64,000 nt of DNA from Alphaproteobacteria bacterium (lineage in GTDB: Bacteria; Pseudomonadota; Alphaproteobacteria; Caulobacterales; Maricaulaceae). A program made the translations under genes and the position numbers. The notes under the pieces were generated by a model that was given only the letters and a program-made list of their open reading frames with translations, made no database searches and had not been told where the DNA came from. Every line of letters begins with the position of its first letter. Within the stretch, counting starts at the first letter, position 1. Positions 13,397-20,168 of the stretch are shown here, one piece after another. The stretch spans positions 310,001-374,000 of the forward strand of contig WGOD01000001.1 of the NCBI GenBank assembly GCA_016124205.1. Direction: 5' to 3'.

Positions 13397-14170
13397 TCAG
13401 GCGAAGAAAAGCGCCTGACCGATCGCGGCCTTAACGGCATCCGGCAGGAAAGGCTTGGTGATCAGGTAGGTCGGCTCGGGCCGCTCGCCGGTCAGAAGCC
13501 GTTCCGGGAAGGCCGTGATGAAGATCACCGGGCAGGTGTGCGACTTCAGGATCTCGTGCACGGCATCAATGCCTGACGAATTGTCGGCGAGCTGAATGTC
13601 CGCCAGCACGAGGCCCGGCTTGGCAGGCACGGCGCGCTCCAGCGCTTCGGCCTTTGTGCGCGCCTGTCCGGCCACTTCGTGACCGAGGCTCTCGACGATG
13701 CGGCGGAGGTCGGCAGCGATAATCGGTTCGTCCTCGATGATGAAGACATTGGTCTTCAGTACCGCGTCGATTTCCTGCCGCGCCGTGTCGGTCAGCTGAT
13801 CCACCTCGTCGGTGGTGACGCCGAGAATCTGCGCGGCTTCCTTGCCGGAGAAATTCTCCATGGCGGTCAGCAGCAAGGCTTGACGGCTCACAGGCGGCAG
13901 GCGGCGCAGGCGATCTTCGGGACCGGAACCCGCTTCACCTTCATCGTTCGCTGCGTCCAACGTGGCGCCCGCGCTGTTCCAGACAGCGTGGAACAGACGG
14001 TAGAGGGCGACGCGCGCGGGCAGGGACGTGTCGAGCACGCTGCGGTCGGCGATCGCGGCTTCAAGTGCGGCACGGACATGGGCGTCGCCGCTGTTCTGCG
14101 ACCCGGTCAGTGCGCGGGCGTAGCGCCGCAGGAAAGGGAGGTGCGGCCCCAGCTCATTCACGAAACTCAT
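13397..14170 (-). CDS. phyR: General stress response regulator PhyR (sigma-like domain + receiver)
   Basis: N-term EcfG-like SL domain (LGPHLPFLRRYARALTGS...LPPVSRQALLLTAMENFSGKEAAQILG) plus C-term receiver (VFIIEDEPIIAADLRRIVESLGHEV...LVLADIQLADNSSGIDAV). Start MSFVNE at 14170. Confidence 0.96.
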   Translation of the reverse strand: MSFVNELGPHLPFLRRYARALTGSQNSGDAHVRAALEAAIADRSVLDTSLPARVALYRLFHAVWNSAGATLDAANDEGEAGSGPEDRLRRLPPVSRQALLLTAMENFSGKEAAQILGVTTDEVDQLTDTARQEIDAVLKTNVFIIEDEPIIAADLRRIVESLGHEVAGQARTKAEALERAVPAKPGLVLADIQLADNSSGIDAVHEILKSHTCPVIFITAFPERLLTGERPEPTYLITKPFLPDAVKAAIGQALFFA

Positions 14171-14214
14171 GCAGATAATTCCCCGTTTCGAAATCGGTCG
14201 TTTCAAGCGGTTTA

Positions 14215-14239
14215 AACCGTTCATTCGCGATTTGGTTCC
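14215..14239 (-). promoter_or_regulatory. EcfG-type promoter for phyR
   Basis: GGAAC-N16-GGTT on minus strand. Confidence 0.7.
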
Positions 14240-14267
14240 CGCTGCTGAAAAAAAATTGCACCGGCAT

Positions 14268-14292
14268 GGAACCCGACCGCTTTAGGCTTGTT
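14268..14292 (+). promoter_or_regulatory. EcfG-type promoter for nepR-ecfG
   Basis: GGAAC-N16-TGTT on plus strand, divergent to the phyR promoter. Confidence 0.7.
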
Positions 14293-14357
14293 ATATGCGC
14301 TGAAGCAAGCATTCGTGTGCTGGCAGACGGACCCGGCATGACAGCGTGGAAATTGGA

Positions 14358-14561
14358 ATGACCAAAAAAGCAGAAACTTCTCAGGCGCATCGCGACACCT
14401 CTCTGGGTGGAGCTGCCGGCCGGACCGCACAGGATGCGATCGGCCGCCGACTCCGTGAATTCTACGATGAGGTCGTGAACGAGCCGGTGCCGGACGATTT
14501 CATGGACCTTCTGTCCAAGCTGGATCGATCCGATGAGGAGAACGGTAATGACAGCCGCTAG
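14358..14561 (+). CDS. nepR: Anti-sigma factor NepR
   Basis: IGRRLREFYDEVVNEPVPDDFMDLLSKLD NepR core; between phyR and ecfG. Confidence 0.93.
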   Translation: MTKKAETSQAHRDTSLGGAAGRTAQDAIGRRLREFYDEVVNEPVPDDFMDLLSKLDRSDEENGNDSR

Positions 14562-15147
14562 TTCGACTGCGGCGTCGGATGCGGCCGTTTTCCGTCAGGA
14601 CCTGGCGGCGCTGATCCCGCATCTGCGCGCCTTCGCGCGAAGCCTTTGCAACAATGCGAGCGAGGCGGACGATCTGGCGCAAGAGGCGCTGGTCAAAGCC
14701 TGGCAGGCGCGCGAACGCTTCGAGCCGGGCACCAATCTGAAAGCCTGGGTCTTCATGATCCTGCGAAACCATTTCTATTCCGAACGCCGCAAGGCCTGGC
14801 GGAAGAACGAGACCAGCGATGACGGCCTCGAAAGCATGGCAACGATGCCGGCCGGCCAGGATTCGATCATGGAGCTCGCGGATCTGAAGCATGCCATGTC
14901 GTCTCTTCCACCCGAGCAGCGCGAAGCGCTGATCCTCGTGGGGGCGGGTGGCTTTGCCTATGAGGAAGTCGCCGAGATCTGCGAATGCGCCGTCGGGACA
15001 ATCAAGAGCCGAGTGAACCGTGCGCGGGCGGCCCTTACGAAACTGCTGTCCGAGCGACCCGAGACAAAGGTCACCGGAACCGATGCCCTGAAGGCTGCCG
15101 AGGAGATTATCGCCGAGGCCCATGCGCTGGCGGGGGACCGTGGCTGA
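14548..15147 (+). CDS. ecfG: ECF sigma factor EcfG (general stress response)
   Basis: LIPHLRAFARSLCNNASEADDLAQEALVKAWQARERFEPGTNLKAWVFMILRNHFYSERRKAWR; SLPPEQREALILVGAGGFAYEEVAEICECAVGTIKSRVNRARAAL. GAGGAG SD supports start 14548. Confidence 0.95.
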   Translation: MTAASSTAASDAAVFRQDLAALIPHLRAFARSLCNNASEADDLAQEALVKAWQARERFEPGTNLKAWVFMILRNHFYSERRKAWRKNETSDDGLESMATMPAGQDSIMELADLKHAMSSLPPEQREALILVGAGGFAYEEVAEICECAVGTIKSRVNRARAALTKLLSERPETKVTGTDALKAAEEIIAEAHALAGDRG

Positions 15148-16885
15148 AACTGAAGCTTCGCGCTTTCAACCGGGGCTTCGCGCGCGACTTCTGGTCCTCG
15201 TCGCTCTCGCTCTTTCTCCGATCTTTGTGCTCGCCGCGATCCAGGCCTGGATCGACGGGCGTAACCAGCAGGACATTCTGGAGCGCGAACTGGCCGCGTC
15301 CGCGCGACTGCTTGCGCACGATCAGGAAATGCTGATCCGCGGAACCGAGGAGCTGATGATCACCATCTCCTCGATCCCCGAAGTCGCCAGTCTTGGTTCC
15401 GGCTGCAACAACGCAATGGCGCGCGTGACACAACGCAATCGTGCCTACACGAACTTTGCGATCTTCGACCTCGACGGAACGGTGCTGTGTTCGGCCGCAT
15501 CGACCGGAGCACAAACCAATTTCGCCGACGGAGACTGGTTTCAGGAAGCGCTCGAAGCGCAGGATTTCGTGATCGGCCGCTTCCGCATCGGCGCCACAAC
15601 GGGTGAGCCGGTGCTCGTGACCGCGTTGCCATTCTACCAGAATGGTGAGCTCGTCGGCGTCATGGCGACCGGAATCCGTGTCTCGGTGATCCAGCAACTC
15701 GGAATTCGCCGCGAGGACAATGAGCGGGGCCTGATCGCCGGTATCGTCGACCTCAGCGGTGCGGTGATCACCGAACGGACCCAGCTTCACGTCGACAGTA
15801 TCGATCCGTCACTTCTGGCGCGCGCCGATTCCGGTGAGATCGTGGTCTTTGAACGCGCGAATCCTGAATCTGGAATGAGAACACTCGCGGTGGCCTCCCT
15901 TATCGAAGGCGACGTCTACGTGCTTCTTTCGGCGCCGAAACCATCGCTCCTTTCCTGGGCACTGATCGACGTTTCGAGCACATTCGTCCTGCCGCTTCTG
16001 ATGTGGTCGCTCGCACTCGTCGCAATCTGGATTTCGACCGATCACCTGATCCTGCGCTGGCTGTCCTATCTGGGACGGATCGCGCGGCTTTACGGCCTCG
16101 GGCGGTACGAAATCGTTCCGGTCCGCGCCCAACGGGCCCCGCGGGAGATCCGGGAACTGGCTGACAGCTTCCAGTGGATGGCGACACGGATCGCCGAGCG
16201 CGATGAGGAGCTGAATGACGCCCTCGAATACAAGCAGACGCTGATCCGGGAAGTGCATCACAGGGTGAAGAACAATCTGCAGATCGTCACGAGCCTGCTC
16301 AATCTGCAACTCGGCAATGTCGCCGATCCGGAAGCGGTTTCTGCGCTTCGCGAAGCGCAAGCCCGGATCAACGCTCTCGCGATGGTTCACCGCAATCTCT
16401 ACGAGGCCGAAGATCTCCGCTTCATCCGGATTGAACCCTTCCTGTCGGAGCTGTGCCGACTCACGCATGAGGCGGGGCCGGGTCACAATGGATCCGTACG
16501 GCTGGATTTTGTCAGCACATTGAAGGACCGCGTGATCAGCACAGATGAAGCCGTGCCGCTCTCGATGTTCATCACCGAAGCCATGACGAACGCCTACAAG
16601 CACGCCTTCCCGGATCGCCATGCCGACAATGTCCTGACCGTGTCGCTCCGCGAATTCGACCGGGAGGGCGATGTCTGGATCGAGACCCTCGTCACGGACA
16701 ATGGTGTCGGCCTGTCCGAGGAAGAACGCCGGCAGGGGGTCGGGTCGTCCCTTTTCGAGGCGTTCGCGATCCAGCTCGAGGGCGAGTTCGAGATCGACGG
16801 AAAACCGAACGAGGGCGTTCGTATCGCCATTCGTTTCCCGCTCGAACATATCGATCCCGATGCTGAAGAATCTCCCGTTTCGTGA
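15122..16885 (+). CDS. Membrane sensor histidine kinase, HisKA_2/HWE type (PhyK-like)
   Basis: TM + periplasmic cache-like domain + TM/HAMP, EVHHRVKNNLQIVTSLLNLQL, C-term HATPase (ITEAMTNAYKHAF, TDNGVGL). Overlaps the ecfG end. Confidence 0.92.
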   Translation: MRWRGTVAETEASRFQPGLRARLLVLVALALSPIFVLAAIQAWIDGRNQQDILERELAASARLLAHDQEMLIRGTEELMITISSIPEVASLGSGCNNAMARVTQRNRAYTNFAIFDLDGTVLCSAASTGAQTNFADGDWFQEALEAQDFVIGRFRIGATTGEPVLVTALPFYQNGELVGVMATGIRVSVIQQLGIRREDNERGLIAGIVDLSGAVITERTQLHVDSIDPSLLARADSGEIVVFERANPESGMRTLAVASLIEGDVYVLLSAPKPSLLSWALIDVSSTFVLPLLMWSLALVAIWISTDHLILRWLSYLGRIARLYGLGRYEIVPVRAQRAPREIRELADSFQWMATRIAERDEELNDALEYKQTLIREVHHRVKNNLQIVTSLLNLQLGNVADPEAVSALREAQARINALAMVHRNLYEAEDLRFIRIEPFLSELCRLTHEAGPGHNGSVRLDFVSTLKDRVISTDEAVPLSMFITEAMTNAYKHAFPDRHADNVLTVSLREFDREGDVWIETLVTDNGVGLSEEERRQGVGSSLFEAFAIQLEGEFEIDGKPNEGVRIAIRFPLEHIDPDAEESPVS

Positions 16886-18432: not shown

Positions 18433-18605
18433 CCATGCCGCCAAGCCTTTGTAATTGTGTTGAAAACTCTATCTGAAATTTTTCTGCAGCGGACCGGAAC
18501 CAATTTTCCGCATCAGACGTTTTCCAATTGTCCGGCTGGTAGAGCGCCTGTCCCCCCCGTTGGATCCCTCCGTCCTCGCTCTACCGGCCGGACACTTGAT
18601 TCCGG

Positions 18606-18767
18606 TCAGTCCGGTTCCTTTTCCCCGACATAGTTTTCCGAGAGTTTCTGGCTCAGCCGATCATCCGGCTCGAGCTGGTTGAGGATGTCGTCTCCGAGGC
18701 GGCGCATCGCCTCACGGATCGCCGCGTCCTTCTTGCTCGTGGCGTCGTCCTTGCGCGTGTCGCTCAT
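18606..18767 (-). CDS. 53-aa NepR-like peptide (candidate anti-sigma), absent from the ORF track
   Basis: Codon-checked: MSDTRKDDATSKKDAAIREAMRRLGDDILNQLEPDDRLSQKLSENYVGEKEPD. Ungapped alignment to the window's NepR core: 7 identities plus 6 conservative changes in 20 columns. Confidence 0.6.
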   Translation of the reverse strand: MSDTRKDDATSKKDAAIREAMRRLGDDILNQLEPDDRLSQKLSENYVGEKEPD

Positions 18768-18787
18768 CGTTGCATTCAACCTCTTTT

Positions 18788-19249
18788 CTATCGCGGCTCG
18801 GATCGGGTGCGGTGGGGCAGGGCTCCGCTCAGCCGTGCCATGGCCCGGTCGGCCCGGGCCGCCAGCATGTCGGCCGGCACGTTCGACGTTGCGCTGGCCA
18901 GGGCCGGGTCGAATTCCTCGACCACGATAAGACAGGCGGCAAGCCGCTCGTCATAGGGGAGGGACCAGAAGGCAGGGAGAAGCTGCGGATCGTTGATTCC
19001 GGTGCTCCGGAACAGTGGAATGACGTTCACCGCTCTTGCGTCCTGTTCGAGGCTCGCTGCGGCAGCGGAGAAGAGCACCCGAACCACGCCCGGATAATCC
19101 CGCGCTTCGCGCAGGGCGATGTGGCACCCTTCAACGGCTGAGAGCAGCGCCGCGTCCGCCCGGGCGGCGTCGGCGATCATGAGCCGTGCAAACCGCCGCA
19201 GGCGGGGAACAAGGCAGAGTGCGAAATCGAGAATGACAATCTCCCGCAA
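18788..19249 (-). CDS. Stand-alone sigma-like protein resembling the PhyR SL domain, no receiver
   Basis: LCLVPRLRRFARLMIADAARADAALLSAVEG matches PhyR LGPHLPFLRRYARAL...HVRAALEA; LPYDERLAACLIVVEEFDPALASATSNVPADMLAARADRAMARL matches region-4-like LPPVSRQALLLTAMENFSGKEAAQILG. Start codon uncertain (TTG 19249 or another non-ATG). Confidence 0.6.
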   Translation of the reverse strand: MREIVILDFALCLVPRLRRFARLMIADAARADAALLSAVEGCHIALREARDYPGVVRVLFSAAAASLEQDARAVNVIPLFRSTGINDPQLLPAFWSLPYDERLAACLIVVEEFDPALASATSNVPADMLAARADRAMARLSGALPHRTRSEPR

Positions 19250-19265
19250 GAGGGTTTTGCGGGAG
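19241..19265 (-). promoter_or_regulatory. Hairpin covering the likely SD of the sigma-like gene
   Basis: CTCCCGCAA-AACCCTC-TTGCGGGAG, 9-bp perfect stem on minus strand. Confidence 0.6.
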
Positions 19266-19269
19266 AGTG

Positions 19270-19290
19270 GCGCGCAAGTTTTTTGCGCGC
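19270..19290 (-). promoter_or_regulatory. Second adjacent hairpin
   Basis: GCGCGCAA-AAAAC-TTGCGCGC, 8-bp perfect stem on minus strand. Confidence 0.6.
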
Positions 19291-19310: not shown

Positions 19311-20066
19311 TCATGCCATTGATCCGCGGCCGTCGCTGAACTGAAGGTTCCGTAGCGGCCGGGCATCGAGATGAAGGTAATGGCTGTCGAACCCGGCAAT
19401 CGACGCGAGCGATTCCGGGTCGAGGATGCGCAGATGCGCGTTCGTCGACACCAGACCCATGCGGCGCATCGTCGAAACCGTTCGAGATACGTGAACCGAT
19501 GAGAGGCCGACGGCATCGGCAATCAGCTGACGGCTGAGCGGCAGAGCCACGGGCTCGTCGGGATCCGCGTTGCCAGTCAGGATGAGTCGGCGGCGGAGTT
19601 CGAAGAGCAGATGCGAGATCCGCTCGATGGCGTTCCGGCGCCCCACGCGCACGATGTGTTCGCGCAAAATGCCCTCTTCCTGGACGGCCGACCACCACAG
19701 GGCCGAGCTGAGGGCAGGGTGGGCCGAAACGACGCTGAGAAACTCCGGTGTCGGAATGGAGCGGACTTCGCTGAGCGTGATTGTCTCGATTCCGTGGTCG
19801 GACTTCGAGTCGATCATCGCCTGCAGGTCGAAGATGTCGCCTGGCAAAAGGAAGTTGATGATCTGGCGGCGTCCGTCTTCCAGTATCCGCTTCCGGATGG
19901 CCCAGCCTTTCTGGATCACATGGATACGGCGGATCACTTCGCCCTCGCTGATTATGGTCTTGCCGCGCGGCATCTGTTTCAGAACGTGCGACATGCCGGT
20001 CAGCGCCGCCTCGGACGGGCGGGGCAGTTCCGCATACTTCTTCAGACGGGCAAGCAGGGCATCCAT
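19311..20066 (-). CDS. Crp/Fnr family transcriptional regulator
   Basis: cNMP-binding-like PRGKTIISEGEVIRRIHVIQKGWAIRKRILEDGRRQIINFLLPGDIFDLQ; HTH LSRQLIADAVGLSSVHVSRTVSTMRRMGLV. Confidence 0.92.
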   Translation of the reverse strand: MDALLARLKKYAELPRPSEAALTGMSHVLKQMPRGKTIISEGEVIRRIHVIQKGWAIRKRILEDGRRQIINFLLPGDIFDLQAMIDSKSDHGIETITLSEVRSIPTPEFLSVVSAHPALSSALWWSAVQEEGILREHIVRVGRRNAIERISHLLFELRRRLILTGNADPDEPVALPLSRQLIADAVGLSSVHVSRTVSTMRRMGLVSTNAHLRILDPESLASIAGFDSHYLHLDARPLRNLQFSDGRGSMA

Positions 20067-20096: not shown

Positions 20097-20121
20097 AACG
20101 TCGTGCCAAAGACCCGGTTCC
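20097..20121 (-). promoter_or_regulatory. EcfG-type promoter for the Crp-family gene
   Basis: GGAAC-N16-CGTT on minus strand. Confidence 0.8.
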
Positions 20122-20143
20122 CGCGATTCGGATATTCTCCCGC

Positions 20144-20168
20144 GGAACGAATTCACCGAGACAGCGTT
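20144..20168 (+). promoter_or_regulatory. EcfG-type promoter for the 20193 gene
   Basis: GGAAC-N16-CGTT on plus strand. Confidence 0.8.

Follow-up and report, generated by a model that had tools for sequence, protein, structure and literature searches.

The general stress response (GSR) of alphaproteobacteria is classically switched by PhyR, which mimics a sigma factor and is generally assumed to require a phosphorylated receiver for this. What, then, might be the task of a protein that looks like the sigma-mimicking half of PhyR, carries no receiver and is encoded close to a canonical PhyR system? This question is raised by a stretch of 64,000 nucleotides, in the following called the window, from the genome of a marine bacterium of Hyphobacterium type; among named relatives, Hyphobacterium sp. 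SN044 (L099) is the closest. The canonical genes span positions 13397–16885 and were assigned by matches to Pfam and NCBIfam profiles. They encode PhyR with its sigma-like domain and receiver (13397–14170, minus strand), NepR (14346–14561, plus strand, Pfam NepR 2e-17), the sigma factor EcfG (14533–15147, plus strand) and a PhyK-like HisKA_2 histidine kinase (15122–16885, plus strand). Further along, an operon on the minus strand starts with the gene of a Crp/FNR-family regulator (19311–20066; Pfam cNMP_binding and HTH_Crp_2; dN/dS = 0.04 against SN044), continues with an open reading frame of 153 codons with a TTG start (18788–19249), here called SL, and is followed by a small open reading frame of 53 codons (18606–18767). 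A preliminary description of the window had proposed that these last two form a second PhyR/NepR-like pair acting as a phosphorylation-independent partner switch.

A sigma-like protein without a receiver

The SL reading frame was found as described: it ends after a sigma4-like domain, and no receiver follows. Helices predicted for the protein make up a sigma2-like part (residues 2–74) and a sigma4-like part (residues 90–140). Single SL proteins have only weak sequence similarity to PhyR (11–31 bits). The window copy matches Pfam PhyR_sigma2 with E=0.0018 and 18.7 bits, where the cut-off is 27, and among the NCBIfam models its best match is that of an ECF sigma factor (PRK12511, E=1.3e-4), which covers the sigma4 part, followed by PhyR (PRK09191, E=0.015). 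When the SL family described below was compared profile to profile with hhalign, the E-value was 8e-10 for the PhyR sigma-like domain and 2e-8 for EcfG. A hidden Markov model (HMM) of the PhyR domain outscored that of EcfG for all seven SL proteins of the first set, and the seven SL proteins first found in the genus g25 yielded 19–31 bits on the PhyR model, with no EcfG match at E<=1e-3. Most of the g25 proteins also carry a motif LTGDQ..AD, close to LTGSQ..GD of PhyR. A search of the sequences in the PDB with the SL profile returned PhyR proteins as the top four of 177,635 entries. The resemblance to the PhyR domain is thus above chance.

Structure prediction points in the same direction. An AlphaFold2 model calculated from four sequences has eight helices, a mean pLDDT of 81 and a pTM of 0.76. 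Its best fold matches include the PhyR:NepR complex (4qic, rank 1), EcfG:NepR (5uxx) and the PhyR sigma-like domain with NepR (2lfw), with TM scores of 0.56–0.66; Foldseek E-values are about 0.002, and other sigma:anti-sigma complexes are also among the best matches. The PhyR domain (PF22029 PhyR_sigma2, PF22233 PhyR_sigma-like; PDB 3n0r, 4qic, 2lfw) is the best profile and fold match of SL and shares with it the two-domain fold, the size and the occurrence at the GSR locus. In contrast to PhyR, SL has no receiver, falls below all curated cut-offs and forms a clade of its own; it is located behind a Crp gene, whereas phyR is divergent from nepR-ecfG. By sequence and model, SL resembles the sigma-mimicking half of PhyR without the phosphorylation domain. 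The tree, which has long branches, joins the SL proteins to one clade (support 99/97) apart from a fully supported EcfG clade. Seven columns diagnostic for PhyR or EcfG could not decide on the ancestry of the family, as they split 28 to 30, so that the family is not established as a descendant of the PhyR domain, an ECF sigma factor being the alternative ancestor.

The preliminary description had also considered that SL might be a degenerate sigma factor. Read this way, SL would still function as an ECF sigma factor despite its degeneration, and the small protein encoded behind it would control it. It could appeal to the ECF sigma factor as best NCBIfam match and to an end of region 4.2 resembling RA.RA..RL, which is retained in the SL proteins of Hyphobacterium and IN14. 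Against this, the core-binding motif of region 2.2, AQE..KAW, which is nearly invariant in EcfG, is lost across the SL family, as are the basic residues of regions 2.4 and 4.2. The mean net charge of regions 2.3–2.4 is -1.7 in SL as compared to +4.5 in EcfG, and that of the region 4.2 helix is -0.2 as compared to +4.6. With the motif lost and these charges reversed or near zero, binding of DNA and of core polymerase is unlikely. Fold and shared ancestry are common to SL and EcfG (ECF15; PDB 5uxx with NepR). PhyR has undergone the same kind of loss of sigma-factor residues as SL, and it is PhyR that is favoured by the profile and PDB searches. SL is therefore probably not a sigma factor, and a working one appears quite improbable.

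Distribution, gene order and expression signals

The SL family, previously unnamed and unannotated, was found in 19 genomes from two families of one order, and a receiver is absent from every member. No description of a stand-alone SL protein was found in the open-licence literature. The first survey covered 60 fetched loci of relatives, almost all centred on a nepR gene from the same family. In IN14, G009, G020, G034 and G062 it revealed an SL-type reading frame immediately following the orthologous Crp gene. A profile search over the order added the genus g25 of a second family, and a search of the family added g43 and g56. The class was sampled with 387 genomes, and apart from the window itself only a reading frame of 267 amino acids, long enough to be a PhyR, came up. 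Several candidates were discarded: the first search had matched G006 and G007 through sigma factors of the ordinary kind with different neighbours, and the order-level matches L109 and L110 are ordinary ECF sigma factors. The gaps between Crp and PhyR of other Maricaulaceae are no SL sites either, since they are occupied by a different, convergent gene for a protein of about 140 amino acids with unassigned role (L041, L044, L048, L052, L058, L063, L066). As a separate observation, two of the surveyed loci, L060 (G021) and L084 (G035), contain two nepR-ecfG pairs in tandem within about 1–2 kb.

Gene order is nearly fixed. SL lies directly behind the Crp orthologue in 18 of the 19 genomes, the exception being L106, where it is located tail to tail with phyR. 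The genes phyR-nepR-ecfG occur within the fetched few kilobases of SL in 15 genomes; in three g43 genomes crp-SL lies outside the GSR locus, and the flanks that were fetched contain none of its genes, while the piece available for L111 does not extend far enough to judge. The neighbourhood described for the window is hence conserved in relatives. The SL protein of SN044 is 88% identical to the window copy, and the next nearest, from the Maricaulis sp. IN14 bin (L100, on the same contig as G001), is 49% identical. A decaying duplicate without function could account for the low sequence conservation between genera and for a start codon buried in a hairpin (see below). The comparison with SN044 yields a dN/dS of 0.11, however, and none of 5000 neutral simulations was as conserved, which indicates purifying selection; since SL has moreover been kept in 19 genomes of two families in a nearly constant order, decay is the least credible of the explanations and very improbable.

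Upstream of crp-SL an EcfG-type promoter, GGAAC-N16-CGTT, is present at 20097–20121 on the minus strand, as the preliminary description had reported. It is found at the same place in SN044 and IN14, with a distance to the ATG of crp of 55 nucleotides in the window and in SN044 and of 57 in IN14. A strict match to this promoter precedes crp-SL in 11 of the 19 genomes, and none was seen on that strand in the eight g25 genomes. In the window the promoter is one of two arranged back to back (20121 on the minus and 20144 on the plus strand, in 20097–20168) in the interval that separates crp from a short divergent gene; SN044 and IN14 have the same pair. The gap between crp and SL is filled by two tandem hairpins (19237–19290, minus strand, -31.6 kcal/mol, z -6.8), the second of which contains the TTG start codon of SL in its 3' arm. 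Both are kept in SN044 with changes in the loops (-28.7 kcal/mol, z -5.5). As the start codon lies inside a stable hairpin, expression of SL may be low or otherwise regulated, and the hairpins point to some control of SL at the RNA level.

On the opposite strand a candidate small RNA is convergent with the SL operon, its 3' flank running toward the small reading frame. It is predicted from an EcfG-type promoter GGAAC-N17-CGTT (18496–18521, plus strand) and a hairpin (18529–18594, plus strand) with an 18-bp stem and a 30-nucleotide loop that contains CCCCCCC and CCCUCC. An EcfG promoter, a place at the GSR locus and an exposed C-rich loop characterize GsrN of Caulobacter (PMC5869019), and the predicted RNA shares all three, so it is considered a GsrN-like candidate. 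In IN14 the element (18496–18594) has 90% identity and is succeeded by a strong terminator, which lies, on the other strand, directly behind SL. Small RNAs of the same architecture with EcfG promoters occur at the GSR loci of five further genomes, SN044, IN14, G004, G010 and G019 (L099 10755(-), L039 10607(+), L046 12361(+), L050 11068(+), L061 4838(-)); in the last three of these genomes the stem sequences are largely different. The fold z-scores are -6.75 in the window, -5.5/-8.4 in IN14, -5.1 in G004 and -6.5 in G010, and in G019 the fold is not better than shuffles (z -0.35). In G004 the RNA is found at the same place, with neither Crp nor SL there. Rfam yielded only sub-threshold chance matches over the element.

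Small proteins encoded behind SL

The 53-codon reading frame was likewise present as described, with an ATG at 18767 on the minus strand, exactly 20 nucleotides past the SL stop codon, and the quoted alignment of 20 columns with NepR does have seven identities. The GC contents by codon position (0.65/0.37/0.81) together with the conserved length in SN044 make it probable that the frame is translated. In SN044 the orthologue is 77% identical, with start, stop and length kept. Signs of constraint are weak: the three codon positions have taken up substitutions evenly, at a dN/dS of about 0.5, and in neutral simulations the frame stayed open in 27% of cases and amino acid changes were as few in 10%. 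The sequence is fast evolving. Conservation in relatives, on which the proposal of a second pair had depended, was found in part: the small frame has its orthologue in SN044, but the syntenic Maricaulis locus of IN14, each of the three g14 genomes and one genome of g25 (L106) lack it. A search in 60 relatives found the frame itself only, other matches having E>0.04 and lying nearly all inside long open frames.

Beyond the window, a small reading frame behind SL is recurrent. It occurs in 10 of the 19 genomes, namely in seven of the eight g25 genomes, in the two Hyphobacterium genomes and in G009. The seven of g25 encode related proteins of 55–79 amino acids whose start codons adjoin the stop codon of SL or overlap it; that of G009, of about 75 amino acids and with a good ribosome site, starts in the same manner. 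In g43 and g56 (L112, L114, L115, L113) SL is followed instead by a gene for a short peptide with a single membrane helix, which in g43 has a strong ribosome site.

Are these proteins relatives of NepR? The 53-residue protein is like NepR (PF18557) in size, in its position beside a sigma-like gene and in a weak match to the register of helix 1. Most of the strongly conserved NepR positions are missing from the window copy, among them the G that follows I, the Y and F..LL; it is not encoded beside ecfG, and no match to the Pfam and NCBIfam models of NepR (PF18557, NF051865) was obtained even at E<=10. On a local HMM of 60 NepR sequences it reached 7.2 bits, a score equalled by 7 of 2000 shuffles, and its ungapped score was equalled by 0.3% of shuffles. 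The SN044 orthologue performs worse, with 1.9% (HMM) and 4% (ungapped), and the individual g25 proteins scored nothing above shuffles on the local HMM. As a family, the g25 proteins align to the NepR profile with a P of 0.007 in hhalign (1 of 200 column shuffles was as good), and the pair from Hyphobacterium does so with a P of 0.004. Between themselves the two groups have no clear match (P 0.016, in a register differing from the NepR register), and a single family of small proteins is not supported. An AlphaFold2 model of the window protein has two helices (3–31 and 36–45) and a pTM of 0.43 from two sequences. The claim of a NepR-like peptide is therefore upheld as far as a recurrent small frame and two weak alignments go, which is suggestive, not proof, of NepR-like partners, and it fails as to recognition by any NepR model.

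These data bear on an explanation in which SL and the small protein, a diverged NepR-like antagonist, form a closed pair parallel to PhyR and NepR, which need not touch the canonical NepR. The adjacency in 10 of 19 genomes, the abutting or overlapping starts in g25 and G009, the two alignments and the two-helix model would fit such a pair. The missing match to NepR models, the absence of the small frame from IN14, g14 and L106, its replacement by a membrane peptide in g43 and g56, the missing mutual match of the Hyphobacterium and g25 proteins and the dN/dS of about 0.5 in the window speak against it, and it is considered rather unlikely.

A possible kinase-free arm of the stress response

The reading preferred here, which is given an even chance, is that SL is a phosphorylation-independent decoy of NepR under the control of EcfG, feeding back on the stress response. 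It builds on the SL family, its predicted fold, the lost residues of sigma function, purifying selection, the gene order and the EcfG promoter in 11 of 19 genomes, and it best fits fold, residue losses and gene order. What speaks against it is the weak sequence similarity to PhyR, the even split of the diagnostic columns, the eight g25 genomes in which no strict EcfG promoter precedes crp-SL, the three g43 genomes with crp-SL away from the GSR locus, and the SL start codon buried in a hairpin. That SL binds NepR, in which direction it feeds back and what the small proteins do, we infer. As a stand-alone sigma mimic of the GSR, SL would be made when active EcfG transcribes crp-SL from the operon's own EcfG promoter. 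Resembling the half of PhyR that lacks the phosphorylation domain, it might then engage NepR without phosphorylation or a kinase and push the stress response on, and the outcome would be an arm of the GSR that feeds forward or latches. In several lineages, the small protein whose gene directly follows SL would bind to it and adjust its action.

Gene order and promoter fit either sign of feedback, and SL might instead bind NepR as a brake or another kind of sink, for instance as a chaperone stabilising NepR or as a blocker of phosphorylated PhyR, which would give negative feedback. By the established mechanism of PhyR, however, SL and EcfG would compete for the same surface of NepR, so that binding should free EcfG; a brake is for this reason unlikely. 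The decoy reading has a counterpart in RT-PhyR' of Rubellimicrobium thermophilum, in which NepR binding is uncoupled from phosphorylation (PMC12148442). The function is the same as that proposed for SL, but RT-PhyR' retains its receiver.

The partner switch of the preliminary description has thus divided into two parts. A receiver-less SL in a Crp operon with an EcfG promoter is conserved beyond this genome, and this part is now better supported, with a conserved family in place of the single sequence. The other part, a second NepR, is no more than possible; no NepR model recognises the small proteins. A kinase-free switch in which EcfG-induced SL and a diverged NepR-like antagonist behind it are layered, in several lineages, on PhyR, NepR and EcfG is put forward as a tentative proposal, clearly less probable than the decoy.

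As the decoy idea concerns two small soluble proteins, it is directly testable. If it is true, a receiver-less mimic inside the EcfG regulon would provide a latch or amplitude control which no kinase can reset, and it would mean that the mimic domain can evolve separately from its receiver.
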